DNA of 64,000 nt from Lachnospiraceae bacterium. Its GTDB lineage: Bacteria > Bacillota > Clostridia > Lachnospirales > Lachnospiraceae. The position numbers and the translations under genes are program-made. The notes beneath the pieces are model-generated. The model worked only from the letters and a program-made list of their open reading frames with translations, had not been told where the DNA came from and did no database searches. Within the stretch, counting starts at the first letter, position 1, and the number at the start of each line of letters is the position of its first letter. Location: NCBI GenBank assembly GCA_016281555.1, contig JAEEIV010000067.1, positions 1 to 64,000 of the forward strand. Direction: 5' to 3'. Of this stretch, positions 1 through 52,615 are shown one piece after another.

Positions 1-1674
1 GCCGTGAAGGAACTGCTGGAAGATCCGATCCTCAGGGACGAGATCAGGGAATACTTAAATCCGATCTACGATCTCGAGCGGCTTCTTTGCAAGATCAGTT
101 ATAAAACAGCGAATCCGAAGGACCTCATCGCCTTCCGGAATTCCATCGAGATGATCCCGCACATCCGCACGCTCCTTAAGTCCGCGAAGTCGGAACTGCT
201 CCGGGAGATCACGGAAGAGATGGACGAAATGCGGGACCTGTACGGTTTGATCTTTGATGCGATCGAAGAGGACCCGCCGGTGCTCGTGCACGACGGAAAC
301 ATCATCAAAACCGGGTTCAATGAACTCGTCGACAATTACCGGAAGTCCAGAACGGAAGGGAAGAGCTGGCTGCTCGCACTGGAAACGGAAGAACGCGAAA
401 AAACCGGCATCAAGACGCTGAAGGTCAAGTTCAACAAGGTGTTCGGATATTCGATCGAAGTCACAAATTCCTTCCTGGACCAGGTGCCAGATTACTTCAT
501 CCGGAAGCAGACGCTGACCGGCGGCGAGCGGTTCATCACGCCGCGTTTAAAGGAACTGGAGGATCTGATCCTCGGTGCGGAAGACAAGCTGAACGCGCTG
601 GAGTTCGAACTCTTCAAGACCGTGCGCGACACCATTGACGCCGAAGCGGACCGGGCGGTGAAAACGGCCGCCGCGGTGGCGACGCTCGATGCGATCGCAA
701 GTCTCGCATACGTCGCGGAGAAAAACCGCTACGTCTGCCCGAAACTCAATGAAAAGGGACGGATCGTCATCAAAAACGGCCGTCATCCGGTCATTGAGCT
801 TCTGTCCGGTTCGGAAACGTTCGTGCCCAATGACACGCTGCTCGACAATGACGAGAACCGCGTGCTCATCATTACGGGACCGAACATGGCCGGCAAATCG
901 ACCTACATGCGCCAGGTGGCGCTCATCACGCTCATGGCGCAGATGGGATCCTTCGTTCCCGCAGACGAAGCGGACATCTCGATCTCGGACCGGATCTTCA
1001 CGAGAGTCGGCGCATCGGATGACCTTGCAAGCGGGCGCTCCACGTTCATGGTGGAAATGACGGAAGTCTCGAACATCTTAAGGAACGCGACGAAGAAGAG
1101 TCTCATCATCCTCGACGAGATCGGACGCGGCACCTCGACCTTCGACGGATTGTCGATCGCGTGGGCCGTGGTCGAACACATTGCCGATCCGAAGATCCTC
1201 GGCGCGAAGACCGTGTTCGCGACGCATTATCACGAACTGACGGAACTCGAGGGCGCGGTTCCGGGCGTACAGAACTACTGCATTTCCGTGAAGGAACAGG
1301 GCGACGGGATCGTGTTTCTTCGGAAGATCGTGAAGGGGAGCGCGGACAAGTCCTACGGCATTCAGGTCGCGCGGCTTGCGGGCGTTCCGCGGGAAGTCCT
1401 GGAACGCGCGAAGGAACTCATGCTGGAACTCGTGAATTCCGACATCGCGTCGAAGGCGAGGGAGATCGCGGAATTCGCTTCCGGGAAGACCGTTTCGAAG
1501 AAGCGTGTGGAACGGCAGGACAGCGTGGACGCGAACCAACTGACCTTCGGAGACGTCGTGAAGGACGACGACGTGATCCGGGAGATCCGGGAACTCGATC
1601 TTACGAGAATGACGCCGATGGATGCCCTGAACACTTTGTTCCGGCTGCAGTCGGAGATCACAAACAGATTTTAA
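1..1674 (+). CDS. mutS: DNA mismatch repair ATPase MutS, 5' truncated by window edge
   Basis: Carboxy-terminal 557 or so residues of MutS, which recognises mismatches and recruits MutL. The reading frame is open to base 1, so the GTG at base 4 is only the first start-like codon seen and the true start lies upstream. Visible are part of the lever/clamp region, then the ABC-type ATPase with Walker A (GPNMAGKST, about residue 292 of the visible part), Walker B (IILDEIGRGTST) and the ATHYHEL switch region, then the dimerisation tail. The mismatch-binding N-terminal domain is outside the window. MutL follows 11 bases later, a standard mutS-mutL operon. Confidence 0.97.
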   Translation, partial: AVKELLEDPILRDEIREYLNPIYDLERLLCKISYKTANPKDLIAFRNSIEMIPHIRTLLKSAKSELLREITEEMDEMRDLYGLIFDAIEEDPPVLVHDGNIIKTGFNELVDNYRKSRTEGKSWLLALETEEREKTGIKTLKVKFNKVFGYSIEVTNSFLDQVPDYFIRKQTLTGGERFITPRLKELEDLILGAEDKLNALEFELFKTVRDTIDAEADRAVKTAAAVATLDAIASLAYVAEKNRYVCPKLNEKGRIVIKNGRHPVIELLSGSETFVPNDTLLDNDENRVLIITGPNMAGKSTYMRQVALITLMAQMGSFVPADEADISISDRIFTRVGASDDLASGRSTFMVEMTEVSNILRNATKKSLIILDEIGRGTSTFDGLSIAWAVVEHIADPKILGAKTVFATHYHELTELEGAVPGVQNYCISVKEQGDGIVFLRKIVKGSADKSYGIQVARLAGVPREVLERAKELMLELVNSDIASKAREIAEFASGKTVSKKRVERQDSVDANQLTFGDVVKDDDVIREIRELDLTRMTPMDALNTLFRLQSEITNRF

Positions 1675-3662: not shown

Positions 3663-5336
3663 ATGGAAGAAGAGAAGACTTTATCGAGAAATTTTATTGA
3701 AACCGAGATCGACAATGATCTCGCGGAAGGCGTGTACGACACCGTTCACACCCGCTTTCCTCCGGAACCGAACGGCTATCTGCACATCGGCCACGCGAAG
3801 TCGATCCTGTTAAACTACGGGCTGGCCGAGAAATATCACGGGAAATTCAACCTCCGGTTCGACGACACGAACCCGACGAAGGAAAAGACGGAATTCGTGG
3901 ATTCGATCACGGCCGACGTCAGATGGCTCGGCGCGGATTTCGAGGACCGGCTCTTTTTCGCGTCGGACTATTTCGACACGATGTACGAATGCGCCGTGAA
4001 ACTCATCAAAAAGGGCAAGGCCTACGTCTGCGACCTTTCGGCGGACGAGATCCGGGAATACCGGGGAACGCTCACCGAGCCCGGGAAGGAAAGCCCGTAC
4101 CGGAACCGGAGCGTGGAGGAAAACCTGCAGCTCTTTGAGGACATGAAGAACGGAAAGTTCGCGGACGGAGAAAAGGTGCTTCGTGCGAAGATCGACATGG
4201 CGAGCGCGAACATCAACATGCGGGATCCCGTCATCTACCGGGTGGCCCGGATCACGCACCATAACACCGGCGACAAATGGTGCATCTATCCGATGTACGA
4301 TTTCGCGCATCCGATCGAGGACGCCGTCGAGCACATCACGCATTCGATCTGCACGCTGGAGTTCGAGGACCACAGACCGTTATACGACTGGGTCGTCAGG
4401 GAGTGCGAGTTCGATCATCCGCCCCGTCAGATCGAGTTTGCGAAGATGTATCTCACGAACGTCATTACCGGCAAGCGCTACATCAAGAAACTCGTCGAAG
4501 ACGGCATCGTCGACGGCTGGGACGATCCGAGGCTCGTCACGATCGCGGCACTCAGGCGCCGCGGCTACACGCCGGAATCCATCCGGACCTTCGTCGAGCT
4601 TTCCGGCGTTTCGAAGAGCAATTCCTCGATCGACTACGCCTTCCTGGAGTACTGCATCCGCGAGGACCTGAAACTGAAATGCAGCCGCGTGATGGCGGTC
4701 CTGCATCCTTTAAAGGTCATCATCGACAATTATCCGGAAGGAAAGACCGAAATGCTTCCGGTCCAGAACAATCTCGAGAACCCCGAACTCGGAAGCCGCG
4801 AGATCCCCTTCTCCAGAGAGATCTACATTGAGGAAGAGGACTTCATGGAGGAGCCGCCGAAGAAGTATTTCCGGCTGTTCCCCGGCAATGAAGTGCGTCT
4901 TATGAACGCGTATTTCGTGACCTGCACCGGCGTCGACAAGGACGAAAACGGAAAGATCACGGCCGTGCATTGCACCTATGATCCCGAAACGAAGGGCGGC
5001 GATTCTCCGGACGGCAGAAAGGTGAAGGGCACGATCCATTTCGTCAATGCGTCCACCGCGTTTCGCGCGGAAGTCCGCCTGTACGAGAACATCGTGAACG
5101 AGGAAGGCCGGTTCAATGAGGACGGAAGCCTGAACTTAAACCCGAATTCCAGGGTCGTCATTGAAGACGCGGTGCTGGAGCCTTCGCTGGCCGCGGTACA
5201 GCCACTCGACCGGTTCCAGTTCGTCCGGAACGGCTATTTCTCCGTGGATCCGAAGGGCTTTACCGACGGAAAGCCGGTCTTCAACCGGATCGTTTCGTTA
5301 AAGAGCAGCTTCAAGGTCCCGGCGAAGACGGAGTAA
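3663..5336 (+). CDS. glnS: Glutaminyl-tRNA synthetase
   Basis: Charges tRNA-Gln directly with glutamine. Class I synthetase, 557 residues (E. coli GlnRS is about 554). The HIGH-type signature is [14 protein letters not shown] near residue 35. GlnRS landmarks follow: DGWDDPRL and [12 protein letters not shown] in the catalytic core, with the KMSKS-equivalent lysine loop in the ITGKRYIKK stretch, then the two C-terminal beta-barrels that read the anticodon. The start is the ATG at 3663 behind GGGAGA. It lies 42 bases after mutL and probably shares its transcript. Confidence 0.95.
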
Positions 5337-5361
5337 AGCGAAAACCACTGAAGGAGAGTCT

Positions 5362-6084
5362 ATGGCGGAAAAACTCTATACGATCCCTGTAAACGACGCT
5401 TTTGACCTGCATTCCGAATGCCCGGTCTGTTCCATGGTGTCGAAACTCGAACGCGACGCGGTGGAGTATACGCTCGGCCCGTCCTACATGGAGGACGACA
5501 CGCGCATGGAGACCGACAAAAAGGGCTTCTGCACGCCGCACATGAGAATGCTGCTCGCGGAAAAGAACCGGCTCGGACTGTCGCTCATCTTAAAGACGCA
5601 CATTGACCGGCAGGTGAAGGCCATGGAGATCCTGAAGAAGGGCGCGGTCAAACCGAAGTCGTTCTTAAAGAAAAACGACGAGTCGGAGATCGGGCAGTAC
5701 CTCCGGGAAACCGACGAGACCTGTTTCATCTGCGACCGGATGGATCTGACGTTTCCGCATTACCTCGACACGACGGTGAGGCTGTTCGAAAAGGATCCGG
5801 AATTCCGGAAAAAGTTTGAGGAATGCAACGGATTCTGCGGCCGTCACGCCGGCATGCTCATCGAAAAAGGGCGGGAAAGACTCTCCGGGAAAGCGTTGAC
5901 GGAATTTGTCGAAGTCACGGTAAAGCTCTATCAGGAGAACCTGAAGCGCCTGTCCGAGGATCTCGACTGGTTCCAGAACAAGTTTGATTACCGGTACAAG
6001 GATGCGCCGTGGAAGAATTCCCGGGACGCGATCGAACGCGCGGCCGTGAAGACGAACAGCATCCTGCCGAAGGAAGAAAAGTAG
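5362..6084 (+). CDS. DUF6062 family protein, probable zinc-binding
   Basis: A 240-residue cytosolic protein that I recognise as the clostridial DUF6062 family; its function is unknown. Two internal modules have the same metal-ligand spacing: CPVC followed by CTPH (residues about 20-55), and CFIC followed by CGRH (about 123-160). This suggests two CxxC...CxxH zinc sites on a helical scaffold. No signal peptide or membrane segment is seen. The C-terminal stretch FDYRYKDAPWKNS is a family hallmark. The start ATG has AAGGAGAG just upstream, 25 bases after glnS. Confidence 0.8.
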   Translation: MAEKLYTIPVNDAFDLHSECPVCSMVSKLERDAVEYTLGPSYMEDDTRMETDKKGFCTPHMRMLLAEKNRLGLSLILKTHIDRQVKAMEILKKGAVKPKSFLKKNDESEIGQYLRETDETCFICDRMDLTFPHYLDTTVRLFEKDPEFRKKFEECNGFCGRHAGMLIEKGRERLSGKALTEFVEVTVKLYQENLKRLSEDLDWFQNKFDYRYKDAPWKNSRDAIERAAVKTNSILPKEEK

Positions 6085-6085
6085 G

Positions 6086-6115
6086 TTTTTCCGGAAACGC
6101 AGCGTTTCCGAAAAA
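6086..6115. other. Long inverted repeat without terminator polarity
   Basis: CGGAAACGC-A-GCGTTTCCG (6092-6110) is flanked by TTTTT on its left and AAAAA on its right, so the flanks extend the stem to about 14 bp with one bulge. Neither strand has a T run after the stem, so it is not a normal rho-independent terminator. It lies between the DUF6062 gene and mscL. Confidence 0.6.
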
Positions 6116-6148
6116 ATAAACGAAGAGTTTCAAGGAAAGGAGTATACC

Positions 6149-6628
6149 ATGAAGAAGTTCTTTAAGGAATTCAAGGAATTCGCGATCAAGGGCAACATGA
6201 TCGACATGGCGGTCGGCGTTATCATCGGCGGCGCGTTCACCGCGCTCGTTACGGCGTTCACGACGAACATCGTGAATCCGCTGCTTTCGCTGATCCCGGG
6301 CATGGACGGCCTGGACGAATCGCTGAAGATCGTGCTGAAGGAAGCGGTCGAGGCGGACGAAGCGGCCGGAATCGCAGCTTCCCCCGAAGTCGCGATCAAG
6401 TTCGGCGCGTTCATTTCCGCGATCATCACCTTCATCATCCTGGCGTTCATCATCTTCCTGTTCGTGAAGTCGTTGAACAAGGCACGGAAGAAGGCCGAGG
6501 AACTGAAGAAGAAGGAAGAAGAGGCACCGAAGGAGCCGACCACGAAGGTCTGCCCGTTCTGCCAGACCGAGATCCCGATCAAGGCGACGCGCTGCCCGCA
6601 CTGCACGAGCGAACTCAAGGAAGAGTAA
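6149..6628 (+). CDS. mscL: Large-conductance mechanosensitive channel MscL with C-terminal zinc ribbon
   Basis: Pentameric membrane channel that opens under high membrane tension and releases solutes in hypo-osmotic shock. The N-terminal amphipathic helix (MKKFFKEFKEFAIKGNMIDMA) and first membrane helix (AVGVIIGGAFTALV) are typical. The second membrane segment is around residues 85-108, followed by a charged cytoplasmic helix. At 159 residues it is longer than E. coli MscL (136) because of an added tail, CPFC-x9-CPHC, a small zinc ribbon in the cytosol. The ATG follows AAGGAAAGGAG. A strong terminator ends the transcript. Confidence 0.95.
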   Translation: MKKFFKEFKEFAIKGNMIDMAVGVIIGGAFTALVTAFTTNIVNPLLSLIPGMDGLDESLKIVLKEAVEADEAAGIAASPEVAIKFGAFISAIITFIILAFIIFLFVKSLNKARKKAEELKKKEEEAPKEPTTKVCPFCQTEIPIKATRCPHCTSELKEE

Positions 6629-47396: not shown

Positions 47397-47567
47397 ATGA
47401 GCGCTTTATTTGCATGGCTTGAGGCCATGGACGTCCTCGGGTGGGAGCAGTTTCTTCTGATCGCGCTGCCCGCCTTGTTCGTGACGATCCTCGTCATTCT
47501 GTGGATCGTGCTGCTCGTCCGTCACATTCAGATGAGAAAGAAGGAAAAACGTGAAGACGATCTTTGA
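47397..47567 (+). CDS. Small membrane peptide upstream of the radical SAM gene
   Basis: Not in the ORF track because it is short. 56 residues: MSALFAWLEAMDVLGWEQF, then a membrane helix (about 20-43), then the basic end RHIQMRKKEKREDDL. GGAGG lies four bases before the ATG, which is strong support. Its last 17 bases overlap the GTG start of the radical SAM gene, so the two are translationally coupled. The topology is that of a small single-pass protein with a positively charged cytosolic tail. I recognise no family. It could be the substrate or partner of the radical SAM enzyme, or just an extra small protein. Confidence 0.75.
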   Translation: MSALFAWLEAMDVLGWEQFLLIALPALFVTILVILWIVLLVRHIQMRKKEKREDDL

Positions 47568-48900
47568 TGAGTCGTCCTCCGTCTTGAAGGTGCTGCCGAA
47601 ACAGACAGTGCAGTCCTTTCACGGAGGCCGGGTCGCCCGCTTTGTCATTCGTGAGGAGATCCCGGAAGGCGTGCTTTGTTATCACGCGCTTCTGAAGATC
47701 TTTCTGCTGCTTACGAAGGAAGAGGACGCGGCACTCACGAATGCGGACCAGACCGCGCCATCGTTCGAGTTTTTCGTGAGCAGATATTTCCTGGTCTCCG
47801 AAAACTTCGACGAACTGAAGACGATCGGGGAAGTGCGGAGCGTTCTTCAGCTTCTCGCGCCGAAGAAACCGCTGCACCGCTTTACGATCCTGCCGACGAC
47901 GGACTGCAATGCCCGCTGCTTTTACTGCTTTGAGGCGGGATGCAAGCGGGAAGACATGAGTCCGGAAACGGCCAAATGCACGGCGGACTTTTTACTCAAT
48001 GTCTCCGGGGATTCCGAGATCAAGATCCACTGGTTCGGAGGCGAGCCTCTTTACCGGAGCGAAGTCATTGACCTGATCTCAGAAAGGCTGACGGCGGCCG
48101 GGAAGAACTTTACGTCGGACCTCGTCACGAACGGCTACCTGCTTCGCGGGGCAATGATCGAAAAGGCCGTCAGGGACTGGCACGTTGCGTCGGCACAGAT
48201 CACACTCGACGGAACGGAAAAAGTGTACAACCGGCGGAAAGCCTATATTTACAAGACGGGAAACCCGTTCGAGACCGTGCTGCAGAACGTCACGGACGCC
48301 GCGAAAGCGGGGATCCGGATCGATCTTCGGCTGAACGTGGACGCGAAAAACAAGGACGACCTCGTCGACCTTGCCGGCATTCTGAAAGAACGTCTGAAAG
48401 GAGTGCCGGACGTCGGCGTCTACGCAAGGATGCTGTACGGAGATTATGAGGATCCGGCAGCGTACGAGGCGTATTACCGGGTGAAGGAAGCATTGGAAGA
48501 GGCCGGGATCCAACGGCCGTCCGGCATTCCGAGAAAACTCTATCTGAACCGGTGCATGGCGGACACGGAGGAAGCCGTCGTGATATTGCCGGACGGGTCT
48601 CTTTGTTCCTGCGAGCATTTCAGCGAGATCGGACCCGCATGGGGGTCGGTCGGCGACCGCTCGGCACACCGTGCGACCGTTTTGCAATGGAGCGAAACGT
48701 ATCCGAAAACGGAACAATGCCTGGAATGTGCCAGAATGGCGGACTGCATCCGGTTACGGAAGTGTCCGGTCGTGCATGAAACGTGTTCGTTACTCGAGCG
48801 GGAACAGCGGACGAAAGAGATGCGGGAAGGCATGCGCTCGGAGTACATGAGATTCAAAGCGCAGGAAGCCGCAGGTCGTGAGACGGCACAAAAAGCATAA
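47551..48900 (+). CDS. Radical SAM/SPASM domain protein
   Basis: 449 residues from a GTG start inside the small peptide gene, with AGAAAGAAGGAA upstream. The N-terminal 100 residues are a substrate-type domain seen in clostridial peptide-modifying radical SAM enzymes. The core has TTDCNARCFYC (CxxxCxxC, about residue 117), WFGGEPL and TNGYLL. The C-terminal SPASM region supplies Cys clusters: CMAD, LCSCEHF, CLEC, CIRLRKC and ETC. Such enzymes usually modify peptides or proteins (thioether, epimer or sulfatase-type). The substrate here is unknown. Confidence 0.85.
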   Translation: MKTIFDESSSVLKVLPKQTVQSFHGGRVARFVIREEIPEGVLCYHALLKIFLLLTKEEDAALTNADQTAPSFEFFVSRYFLVSENFDELKTIGEVRSVLQLLAPKKPLHRFTILPTTDCNARCFYCFEAGCKREDMSPETAKCTADFLLNVSGDSEIKIHWFGGEPLYRSEVIDLISERLTAAGKNFTSDLVTNGYLLRGAMIEKAVRDWHVASAQITLDGTEKVYNRRKAYIYKTGNPFETVLQNVTDAAKAGIRIDLRLNVDAKNKDDLVDLAGILKERLKGVPDVGVYARMLYGDYEDPAAYEAYYRVKEALEEAGIQRPSGIPRKLYLNRCMADTEEAVVILPDGSLCSCEHFSEIGPAWGSVGDRSAHRATVLQWSETYPKTEQCLECARMADCIRLRKCPVVHETCSLLEREQRTKEMREGMRSEYMRFKAQEAAGRETAQKA

Positions 48901-48913
48901 GAGAGGGCACAAG

Positions 48914-50905
48914 ATGAACATTCAGGAACTCACCAAGGGCATTTACGGATGCAGCTGCGGCAGGGATCATCGCTGTCCGATCGACGTGGTGGACATCAGC
49001 CAAACCGCATTGGATTCGCTCCCGGAATACGTGAAAGCGTACGAACGGATCCTGATCGTCGCGGACCGGAATACGTCGAAAGCCTGCGGCGACCGAGTCT
49101 TTTCCTTCCTGGAAAAGAAGGTGACTTCTTACGTCGTGCTCGAGAACAACGGCGACGGTCTCGTCGTCCCGAACGAAGAGAAAATCGCGGAGATCGAATC
49201 GTACTTTGACGGGAACGATCTCATTCTCGGCGTCGGCAGCGGCGTCATCAACGACCTTTGCAAGTACGTGAGTTTCGAAAAGGACGTCCCTTATTTCATC
49301 GTTGCGACTGCGCCTTCGATGGACGGCTACGCCTCTGCGGGCGCGGCAATGATCCTGCAGGGCATGAAGGTCACGACCGGTGCGCGTCCGCCGAAGGGGA
49401 TCCTCGCGGATCCCACGGTCCTGAAGGACGCGCCGTTTGAAATGATCAAGGCGGGGTACGGGGACATTGTCGGGAAATTCAGCTGCCTGAACGACTGGAC
49501 ACTGTCCCATGTGATCAACGGGGAATACCTCTGCGAGACGGTCTGGCAGCTGATGTACGATACCGCGGTCGCGGTGAAGGATCTCGCAGCCGGGATTATG
49601 GCAAAAGACGAGGCCTCCGTGCAGAAACTGATGGAAGCTTTGGTCGTCGCCGGGATCGCGATGGCATACGTCGGAAATTCGAGGCCGGCGTCCGGCTCCG
49701 AGCACCATCTCAGCCATTTCTTTGAAATCACCGGCATTCTGGACCGGAAACCCTATTTCTGCCACGGCATTGACGTCGCGTATGCCTCCGTCGTGACGGC
49801 GGAGATCCGGGAGAAGATCCTTAGGGCGAAACCGTCCTATCAGCCGTTCAGGAAAACGCGTTTTGAAACGGAGATCCGCAGGATCTACAAGTCCAGCGCG
49901 GACGGCGTGATCGCGCTGCAGGAAAAACTCGGCTGGCACGAACAGAACAATGAGACCGTCGTGAAGGAACGCTGGGATCAGATCATCGAGGTGCTGAAGG
50001 AAGCCCCGTCCCGCCGGGAGATGCTGGCCATGCTCGAGGCGGTGGGACTTGATTATGCCGAGTTCGAAGCCATGTACGGCGACCGGAAGATCCAGGACGC
50101 GAAACGGTATGCGAAGGACCTGAAGGATCGCTATTCCGTGCTGTGGCTCGCGGATCAGTACGTTCCGGAGGCGATCGATCTCGACCCCGGAAAGATCAAG
50201 GTCGTCGCTATGGATCTCGACGGTACGCTCTGCCAGCACAAATCCCATCTTCCGGAAGAGAACAAGGAAGCGCTCCTGGCTCTGAAAGAGCGCTACACGC
50301 TGCTGATGTCAGGCGCGGGAATGTGTGAACGGATCTTTCACCAGATGGAGGAGTTCCCGGTGAACGTGCTCGGCACGTACGGAATGCAGTACTGCGAATA
50401 CGACCCTGGGACCGGAACGCTGAAAAAGGTGTTCGACGAGGTGGCTTCCTGCGACAAAGAAAGCGTCCGGCAGCGGATCGACGCTCTCCGGGAGCGCTTC
50501 GGTTTTACCGAATACCGCGGGGAATCCGTCGAATATCACGCCTCCGGCTGCGTGACGTTCCCGATCCTCGGCATGAAGGCGATCCAGGAAGAGAAACTCG
50601 CCTTTGATCCGGACCGGAAAAAGCGGAGAGCGATCCTGGCCGAAGTGAAAACTGCTTTTCCCGAGTACAACGTGTTCGTCGGCGGTTCGTCGTCCTTTGA
50701 CATGGCTCCGAAGCCCTACGACAAGGCCTATGCATTGAAAAAGTATGCGGAGGCGCACGGACTGAAGCCGGAAGAGATCGTCTACATTGGCGACGATTAC
50801 GGCGAAGGCGGCAATGACGAATCCGTCTTCCTTTCAGAATTCCATTACCTGCCGATCGACGATTACCGGGAGTTCCCGGAAACGGTGAAGTGTCTGCTCC
50901 GCTGA
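48914..50905 (+). CDS. Fusion of sn-glycerol-1-phosphate dehydrogenase (AraM/EgsA-like) and phosphomannomutase-like HAD phosphatase
   Basis: 663 residues from ATG 48914 behind GAGAGGG. Residues 1-425 form a group III iron/zinc dehydrogenase: ILGVGSGVINDLCKY binds NAD(P), TAPSMDGYAS is the G1PDH substrate region, and SEHHLSHFFE with CHGIDVAYA supplies metal ligands. Residues about 430-663 form a HAD domain with DLDGTLCQHK (catalytic Asp pair), and SSFDMAPKPYDKAYAL plus GDDYGEGGND, which recall the eukaryotic-type phosphomannomutase family. Together they could reduce dihydroxyacetone phosphate to glycerol 1-phosphate and dephosphorylate it, or the HAD part may act on another sugar phosphate. 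Confidence 0.85.
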   Translation: MNIQELTKGIYGCSCGRDHRCPIDVVDISQTALDSLPEYVKAYERILIVADRNTSKACGDRVFSFLEKKVTSYVVLENNGDGLVVPNEEKIAEIESYFDGNDLILGVGSGVINDLCKYVSFEKDVPYFIVATAPSMDGYASAGAAMILQGMKVTTGARPPKGILADPTVLKDAPFEMIKAGYGDIVGKFSCLNDWTLSHVINGEYLCETVWQLMYDTAVAVKDLAAGIMAKDEASVQKLMEALVVAGIAMAYVGNSRPASGSEHHLSHFFEITGILDRKPYFCHGIDVAYASVVTAEIREKILRAKPSYQPFRKTRFETEIRRIYKSSADGVIALQEKLGWHEQNNETVVKERWDQIIEVLKEAPSRREMLAMLEAVGLDYAEFEAMYGDRKIQDAKRYAKDLKDRYSVLWLADQYVPEAIDLDPGKIKVVAMDLDGTLCQHKSHLPEENKEALLALKERYTLLMSGAGMCERIFHQMEEFPVNVLGTYGMQYCEYDPGTGTLKKVFDEVASCDKESVRQRIDALRERFGFTEYRGESVEYHASGCVTFPILGMKAIQEEKLAFDPDRKKRRAILAEVKTAFPEYNVFVGGSSSFDMAPKPYDKAYALKKYAEAHGLKPEEIVYIGDDYGEGGNDESVFLSEFHYLPIDDYREFPETVKCLLR

Positions 50906-50923: not shown

Positions 50924-52615
50924 ATGAGGTCAGGAAACCTGTATTCTTTCTTTCGGCGCATAAGTCTGCTCATGCCGGTCCTGATGCTCTCGATCACACT
51001 GTTTTCTTGCATAGGAAAAACGGACGGGAGTTCCGCGCCTGCTCCTTCTCAAACGGCGAAAGAGCCCGCTGAAACCGGAACGGTTCCGGAAATCGGGGTC
51101 GACGAAACGCGCCCCTGCTTTTCGGAGGAGACGGCGTTTCGGACGGAGCGGACCGACATCACCGTGACGGTCCCGAAGCCGAAGACGGAAACGTATGAGA
51201 TCTATTATACGCTGGACTGCTCCTCTCCTAAGACGGGCGGGAAACTGCTGAAGGCCGGAGAGAAGATCAAACTCATGTCCGGCGTCGACGGGGTCATTGC
51301 CGCGCGTCCGGTCAGAGCCATTGCCAAATACTCCGACGGCTCCTGGTCGAGAGAGTCGGTGAAGACCTATTTCCTCGGCAAAAACGTGAACGCGCGCTTC
51401 GACACGAAGGTCATTTCGATCAGCGTCGAGCCCGAGGAGTTCTACGGAAAAGACGGCATTTACACGAACTACGAAGAAAAAGGAAAGGCGTGGGAACGGG
51501 CCTGCTATTTCGAGGTCCTGGACGCTGACGGAACGACGCTCCTTTCCCAGCATTCCGGCATCCGGATCCACGGCGGCTGGACGAGGGCGCGCTCCATGAA
51601 GTCCCTCCGGATCTATGCCCGGGCGGATTATGATCCGAATCACGGCTCCTTCGATTATGCGGTGTTCGACGGCGCAACGGATCAGAACGGAAAAGAGATC
51701 GTAAAGTACAAGCGGTTCGTGCTCCGAAACTCCGGCAACGATCAGAACAACACCTTCGTCCGGGACGCATTGGCCCAGACTCTGGCGAAAGAGGCCGGAT
51801 TCACGGCGTACGAGGAAGTCACGCCCGCCGCGGTGTACATCAACGGCAAGTATCAGGGACTGTACTGGCTCCAGGAATACGTGGACGAGCATTATTTCGC
51901 ATCGAAATTCGGCGCATACAAGGGCGAGTTCGAGAAGTCGGAACACAAGGAATACGCCGTGGATACGGAAGAGCGGAATCTGGAATTCCCGGAATTCTCG
52001 TCGTTAGACCTGACGGACGATAAGAACTTTGAAAAAGTGAAGAAGGCGATCGACATTGACGATTACCTGTTCTATTACGCGATCAACACGATCCTCGACA
52101 ATGAGGACTGGCCGCAGACGAATTCGATCTCGTACCGGTACATCCCCGCGGACGGGGAAAGCTACGGAGAGGGCGTGTTCGACGGCCGCTGGCGGTTTAT
52201 GATCCACGACGAGGATATGACCCTCGGGCTCGGGAGCAATCATCCGACGAGAGAGTGCCTGAAGTGCATCCTCGATCCGGAGGCCGTGGTGCATCACAGC
52301 GAAACGCTGGATCTCATCCCGTACAGCCCGCTCTTTGCGGCGCTCATGAAACGGGAAGACATGCGGATCGCATTTTCCGAAAAGGTGAAATCGTTGGTAA
52401 ACGGCGTGTTTTCCGCACAACACATCTCGGAAACGCTGGAAAAGCTTACGGAAAGCGAGCGGAACGAACTCGAGCATTACTATGTCGAGTCTCCGCATAA
52501 GGGCGACCAGACCTGGGACAAGTATCAGACCAAACTGCAGAAACTGAAGGACAATGCGGTGCGCTGCCAGGAGTCGATCCTGAAGCAAATGAAGGATCTC
52601 TGGGGGATCGATTGA
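50924..52615 (+). CDS. CotH-family kinase-like lipoprotein
   Basis: 563 residues. The signal peptide ends in the lipobox LFSC (Cys about 26). A Ser/Pro/Glu spacer leads to a beta-sandwich of the chitobiase/FN3 type (about 75-150), then a CotH domain (about 165-480). CotH homologues phosphorylate spore-coat or other secreted proteins; the motif WRFMIHDEDMTLG near residue 430 fits the catalytic Asp loop, and NTILDNEDWPQTNS is typical. AAGGAGGAAACC precedes the ATG. It is probably displayed on the outer face of the membrane. Its relation to the glycosidase next to it is unclear. Confidence 0.85.
   Translation: MRSGNLYSFFRRISLLMPVLMLSITLFSCIGKTDGSSAPAPSQTAKEPAETGTVPEIGVDETRPCFSEETAFRTERTDITVTVPKPKTETYEIYYTLDCSSPKTGGKLLKAGEKIKLMSGVDGVIAARPVRAIAKYSDGSWSRESVKTYFLGKNVNARFDTKVISISVEPEEFYGKDGIYTNYEEKGKAWERACYFEVLDADGTTLLSQHSGIRIHGGWTRARSMKSLRIYARADYDPNHGSFDYAVFDGATDQNGKEIVKYKRFVLRNSGNDQNNTFVRDALAQTLAKEAGFTAYEEVTPAAVYINGKYQGLYWLQEYVDEHYFASKFGAYKGEFEKSEHKEYAVDTEERNLEFPEFSSLDLTDDKNFEKVKKAIDIDDYLFYYAINTILDNEDWPQTNSISYRYIPADGESYGEGVFDGRWRFMIHDEDMTLGLGSNHPTRECLKCILDPEAVVHHSETLDLIPYSPLFAALMKREDMRIAFSEKVKSLVNGVFSAQHISETLEKLTESERNELEHYYVESPHKGDQTWDKYQTKLQKLKDNAVRCQESILKQMKDLWGID

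Follow-up and report, generated by a model that had tools for sequence, protein, structure and literature searches.

A gene in a Lachnospiraceae bacterium raises the question of what purpose is served by joining a dehydrogenase of sn-glycerol-1-phosphate (G1P) to a HAD domain resembling phosphomannomutase (PMM) in one polypeptide. Archaeal membranes are set apart by their use of the G1P enantiomer, and a conserved module of G1P dehydrogenase (G1PDH) and HAD bears on the role of bacterial G1PDH outside the Bacillales. No description of a fused or paired G1PDH and HAD was found in the papers available for searching. Our best explanation, to which we give a probability of about 0.5, is a G1P module in which an AraM-type G1PDH would interconvert DHAP and G1P while the HAD domain would act on G1P, probably releasing glycerol and phosphate. 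Together, the fusion and the pairs of neighbouring genes described below point to an undescribed G1P pathway in bacteria.

A complete gene for a two-domain protein

The window, by which we mean the entire stretch of 64,000 nucleotides analysed, carries a single 663-residue frame, as expected from the sequence-only reading of this DNA, which had proposed a G1PDH fused to a HAD domain in one polypeptide. Its layout is as follows.

48914..50905, forward strand: complete fused G1PDH-HAD ORF, 663 aa (ATG at 48914, stop ending at 50905)
48914..50161, forward strand: G1PDH domain of AraM/EgsA type (PF13685), residues 1-416 (from PF13685, 9h4x and stand-alone G1PDHs)
50162..50197, forward strand: linker, where relatives have a stop, a ribosome-binding site and a start (from comparison with G589)
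50198..50902, forward strand: HAD-IIB domain of PMM/alpha-phosphoglucomutase (alpha-PGM) fold, residues 429-663 (from PF03332, PF08282, 4bnd and alignment A2)

The AlphaFold2 model of the whole protein has a mean pLDDT of 92, being low only at residues ~401-420, just before the linker, and the HAD domain modelled alone reaches 95. In Foldseek searches with these models the N-terminal half led to AraM and the C-terminal half to alpha-PGM and PMMs.

Since the intact fusion was seen only once, with no other among about 1,200 genomes searched (including 14 congeners and samples of the order, the class and the phylum), one may ask whether two tandem genes were joined by an error of assembly or sequencing. 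The junction in relatives speaks against this. In G589 both genes lie in one frame with a single TAA between them (YCRR*AVDMDKAKIKLIAF), and across the linker its YCRR*AVDMDKAKIK stands against YVPEAIDLDPGKIK of the window. In the window junction, YVPEAIDLDPGKIKVVAM, the stop is absent and the start ATG of the HAD gene reads CTC. The pair also shares a frame in G714, with one TGA between, and in G1186, with a TGA and a TAA. An artefact would thus require at least two differences (the lost stop and ATG to CTC), in a frame that is the same as that of the relatives and free of frameshift. The linker is in frame, with GC3 values of 0.78, 0.75 and 0.74 across domain, linker and domain, and the G1PDHs of G589 and G765 cluster with that of the window (support 100/98), both genomes having the order G1PDH, then HAD. 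On these three grounds, junction, even GC3 and tree, we read the fusion as genuine, having arisen by evolutionary loss of one stop codon and not by error. A frameshift or assembly artefact was rejected on the junction comparison and is extremely improbable.

An AraM-type dehydrogenase domain

The N-terminal part matches PF13685 (Fe-ADH_2) with 101.2 bits against a cut-off of 28 (E 7e-29). The best PDB match of residues 1-416 is the B. subtilis AraM G1PDH (9h4x, 1.6e-49), with archaeal G1PDHs also matched, and the same structure is the best fold match (TM 0.82 on target length). These results bear out the AraM/EgsA assignment that had been made from motifs. The domain is 46-60% identical to stand-alone G1PDHs of the paired group discussed below. 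The residues of most interest are these.

49463..49465, forward strand: Asp184, predicted metal ligand of G1PDH (GYGD, corresponding to GFGD of AraM; invariant in alignment A3)
49703..49705, forward strand: His264, predicted metal ligand (SEHH, corresponding to GEHH of AraM and SEH of archaeal G1PDH; invariant in A3)
49763..49765, forward strand: His284, predicted metal ligand (CHG, corresponding to LHG of AraM; invariant in A3)
48950..48976, forward strand: N-terminal motif C13-x-C15-G-x-x-H19-x-C21, common to the Clostridia G1PDH group (alignment A3)

The substrate-site motifs TAPSMDGYAS and SRPASGSEHHLSH are also present (from comparison with AraM and from A3). Because the predicted ligands D184, H264 and H284 and the EgsA/AraM motifs are retained, DHAP/G1P chemistry is likely for this domain, which would be a metal- and NAD(P)(H)-dependent G1PDH of the AraM type.

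With AraM and archaeal EgsA (9h4x, 4rgq) the protein shares its fold, PF13685, the predicted metal ligands and the TAPSxDGxxS and EHHxSH motifs, but it differs from them by the fused HAD and by the extra CxCGxxHxC motif. In this motif C13 is invariant and C15 and H19 are at least 90% conserved (A3, 11 sequences); it is possibly metal-binding. A further difference, which counts against the module proposed here, is the score of 173 bits with the NCBIfam equivalog for NAD(P)-dependent G1PDH (NF002022), under its cut-off of 413. Four genomes of the window's genus (G003, G004, G005 and G013) also carry a second set of G1PDH-like proteins, which share 32-36% identity with the window domain and are encoded beside FGGY-type sugar kinases.

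AraM partners PcrB, and one may ask whether the fusion could serve archaeal-type ether-lipid synthesis as AraM and PcrB do in B. subtilis, with the HAD dephosphorylating prenylglyceryl phosphate. The AraM-like N-terminal domain fits such a role, and Bacillales do dephosphorylate prenylglyceryl phosphate (PMC9179154). However, no match to PcrB rose above the cut-off in any of 24 genomes, whereas the control search was positive in B. subtilis and archaea, and this argues against ether-lipid synthesis of the AraM type. No prenyltransferase was seen beside the pair, in a search that covered PcrB, and the HAD is soluble and of PMM type. A role through PcrB was rejected on the PcrB scores, and ether-lipid synthesis in this manner is very improbable. 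The function of the G1P-derived lipid in B. subtilis has been described as unknown (PMC5059525), and PlsY and PlsC take both enantiomers (PMC13400652).

A HAD domain with a mutase-like fold

The C-terminal part had been likened to eukaryotic-type PMM, and a profile search against PF03332 and HAD-IIB had been suggested as a check. Both profiles scored above cut-off: PF03332 with 40.6-43.7 bits (cut-off 22.4) and the HAD-IIB superfamily TIGR01484 with 48-51 bits (cut-off 41.8). PF08282 (Hydrolase_3) was likewise above its cut-off, with 45-49 bits. A profile of 24 HAD homologues had as its top match L. lactis alpha-PGM (4bnd, 7e-18), followed by PMM1 and PMM2, and the closest fold is again 4bnd (TM 0.80), with PMMs at 0.62-0.74. 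The resemblance to PMM thus holds, and the motifs cited earlier are present as DLDGT (434-438), SFDMAPKPYDK (containing Lys604) and GDDYGEGGND (626-635).

50213..50227, forward strand: HAD motif I DLDGT, with nucleophile Asp434 and acid/base Asp436 (at least 90% conserved in A2, where one row is without the N-terminus)
50723..50725, forward strand: HAD motif III Lys604 (K181 of A2, invariant)
50789..50818, forward strand: HAD motif IV GDDYGEGGND, of PMM-type spacing (PMM2: GDKTMPGGND; from A2 and PMM comparison)

The family as a whole keeps DxDGT, the motif III Lys and GDDYGxGGND (A2). The Cof-type phosphatase model TIGR00099 gave 41.5 bits against a cut-off of 137; on this score, alignment A2 and the fold, which favour PMM/alpha-PGM, identity as an ordinary Cof-type phosphatase was dropped. 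With L. lactis alpha-PGM and PMM1/PMM2 (PF03332; 4bnd, 7o58) the domain shares the HAD core and cap, the GDxxxxGGND motif IV, the SFD motif of PMM and the motif III Lys, but it is only ~21% identical to them and has a G1PDH partner. In the motif II region (A2 44-46, window 467-469) the family has an invariant Gly-Ala-Gly; the corresponding residues are GGS in PMM and SGQ in alpha-PGM. Ser466, just before this triplet, is found in the window HAD alone.

To our knowledge, all PMM-fold enzymes of known function are mutases. The HAD could accordingly be a phosphomutase: G1P would be turned into G3P by transfer of its phosphate from position sn-1 to position sn-3, with the symmetric 1,3-bisphosphate as intermediate, so that the path would be DHAP to G1P to G3P. 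The nearest fold is in keeping with this, as are the cap segment GxKAxxExKxAxDPD, common to the HAD family and alpha-PGM, and the basic residues K443, H542 and K561 (window numbering), retained in A2. Arg123, Arg134 and Arg141 of PMM2, which bind the distal phosphate, are replaced by His or a gap, by Thr (Met in the window) and by Lys, so the domain lacks the signature of a hexose PMM. The loss is compatible with a mutase, since alpha-PGM itself, a mutase, has Gln and Lys at the positions of Arg134 and Arg141 in the alignment. We know of no precedent for a glycerol-phosphate mutase. Phosphatase and mutase chemistry are not separated by the sequence of the HAD domain, and the supply of G3P bears on the choice between them.

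GpsA and the supply of glycerol 3-phosphate

In the window genome, whose completeness is 93.6%, the one GpsA-like protein is divergent (G000:C46:34338-35390; L089:839-1891); it matches PF07479 above the family cut-off (69.5 bits) and falls well below the cut-offs of all NCBIfam GpsA models. This divergent protein, the only GpsA found there, favours the mutase. Thirteen of the 14 congeners, several of whose assemblies are fragmented or incomplete, likewise have only a divergent GpsA-like copy or no match. It is therefore conceivable that the fused protein would stand in for GpsA, making G3P from DHAP by way of G1P and glycerol-1,3-bisphosphate. Against a mutase, however, canonical GpsA is strong in most of the other genomes bearing the pair, and the congeners without canonical GpsA are also without this HAD and without the fusion. 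Canonical GpsA is also strong in most other sampled members and genera of the window's family. GlpK is present in the window genome and would let it use glycerol, in line with a module that releases glycerol. We consider a mutase unlikely and a replacement of GpsA in this genome quite unlikely; the pair as a general replacement was rejected, as GpsA is present in most pair-bearing genomes.

The stand-alone pair and its neighbours

Stand-alone HADs are 53-60% identical to the fused one. As to whether the two domains occur split and in different contexts in relatives, a finding that the sequence-only reading had set against itself, they are indeed split, yet in 20 of 27 loci the HAD has a G1PDH on its own strand, no more than two genes away. 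The HAD by itself was the query that led to 24 of the 27 loci, and the full-length fusion the query for the other three (L021, L120, L121), so that a slight bias towards pairing is possible. That the split genes are kept side by side supports a shared pathway. G1PDH comes first in 12 of the paired loci and HAD in 8, and the genes often touch or overlap. Of the seven loci without an adjacent G1PDH, two (L071, L072) are truncated, the contig ending close to the HAD, but five are not, which counts against the proposed module.

A divergent DeoR regulator lies within three genes in 13/27 HAD loci, and a glycerophosphodiesterase (GDPD) within two genes in 5/27. A HAD-IIA gene lies within three genes in 2/27. 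Both HAD types are present in L056 and L061; L061 has the order GDPD - HAD-IIB - HAD-IIA - G1PDH. HAD-IIA also accompanies G1PDH in L096 and in Clostridium (L025/L026); in the latter the G1PDH is more distant, and the HAD-IIA gene that comes after it adjoins GH127. Sister G1PDH genes occur in glp-like operons as well. One, in L096, is accompanied by the HAD-IIA, by a G3P-oxidase-like FAD protein (319 bits against a cut-off of 460) and by the GlpP antiterminator, and in L122 a G1PDH with a divergent DeoR adjoins apparently the same two FAD genes, annotated by resemblance only. AraB follows the pair in L063. The theme of these neighbourhoods is glycerol phosphate, with arabinose at some loci. 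From the conservation of this module, frequently accompanied by DeoR and occasionally by GDPD, G1P would seem to be an ordinary metabolite in various Clostridia.

That the two are paired and once fused speaks for a common substrate, and this, with the occurrence of a second HAD type beside G1PDH, leads us to favour a G1P phosphatase. G1P, the intermediate common to both domains, would be the substrate of the PMM-fold HAD, most likely a Mg-dependent phosphatase that works through an aspartyl-phosphate and yields glycerol and phosphate, and the fusion would hold both steps together. We infer from these comparisons the substrate, the direction of the reaction and the choice of a phosphatase over a mutase. 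Against a glycerol-making module, two glycerol-phosphate phosphatases would be redundant where HAD-IIB and HAD-IIA co-occur, and the GDPD and glp neighbours suggest use of G1P rather than synthesis of glycerol. Given the GDPD or glp genes at related loci, the module may work from G1P towards DHAP instead of from DHAP to glycerol, and net use of G1P is kept by them as a serious alternative.

One form of such use would be salvage, in which GDPD releases G1P from lipoteichoic acid, from the head groups of phosphatidylglycerol or from the lipids of archaea, G1PDH oxidises this G1P to DHAP, and the HAD is an AraL-like phosphatase with a house-cleaning role, acting on a by-product or on some other sugar phosphate. 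The GDPD genes and the GlpP and G3P-oxidase-like neighbours of sister G1PDHs agree with this. Yet a shared substrate is the better fit to fusion and pairing, NAD-linked oxidation of glycerol phosphate is unfavourable, and no GDPD adjoins the window gene. Lipoteichoic acid and the phosphatidylglycerol head group do carry Gro-1-P, but the characterised GlpQ enzymes are sn-3-specific (PMC7086022). AraL dephosphorylates sugar phosphates with low specificity and shows no activity on glycerol 3-phosphate (PMC3207120). We hold salvage of this kind to be possible but doubtful.

Returning to the G1P phosphatase, several known systems offer likenesses. In the B. subtilis ara operon, the AraL gene presumably adjoins that of AraM, and there, too, a G1PDH gene would lie beside a HAD phosphatase gene. 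AraL is of HAD-IIA type, whereas the fused HAD is of the IIB/PMM type. Algal G3P dehydrogenase/phosphatase fusions hold a dehydrogenase and a HAD phosphatase in one chain, but they concern the opposite enantiomer and unrelated domain families, and the likeness is one of analogy only. The G3P phosphatase Rv1692 of M. tuberculosis, which we take to be of a different HAD subclass (IIA), is not fused and acts on the other enantiomer. It resembles the proposed role in that it acts after a glycerophosphodiesterase and gives glycerol (PMC12722247). The fused gene provides a defined two-domain enzyme with which G1P metabolism can be tested.

Distribution of the HAD domain

The HAD domain was matched in 23 of 391 genomes of the class sample, the window genome included. 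Among the 392 genomes sampled from the window's order it was found only in the window genome and, as a fragment at a contig start, in one other; neither fusion nor HAD was present in any of the 14 congeners. Two HAD-bearing genomes have only distant G1PDHs (28-29%), and one has none at the threshold used, which also counts against the proposed module. The patchy distribution suggests that the HAD may have been acquired horizontally. For the transfer of EgsA/AraM, Yokobori 2016 reported no features of gene structure that show its direction (PMC5059525).

Other observations at these loci

In L023 (3484-5793) and L024 (8001-10310) a G1PDH is fused to a different C-terminal region of ~350 aa (769 aa in total) that had no Pfam match; both genes adjoin a PFK-like gene, and DeoR is present in L024. 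In L097 a distant G1PDH (5176-6486) is followed by xylose-isomerase-like and FAD oxidoreductase genes, with a ribulose-phosphate epimerase upstream. In the window, a radical SAM/SPASM protein resembling RiPP maturases (47551-48900; TIGR04463 116 bits, below cut-off) ends 13 bases before the fused gene, and a 56-aa ORF (47397-47567) overlaps its start. It was dropped as a candidate conserved neighbour, the radical-SAM protein of L065 being only 27% identical. Directly downstream of the fused gene lies a CotH-kinase family protein (50924-52615; PF08757, 5e-34).
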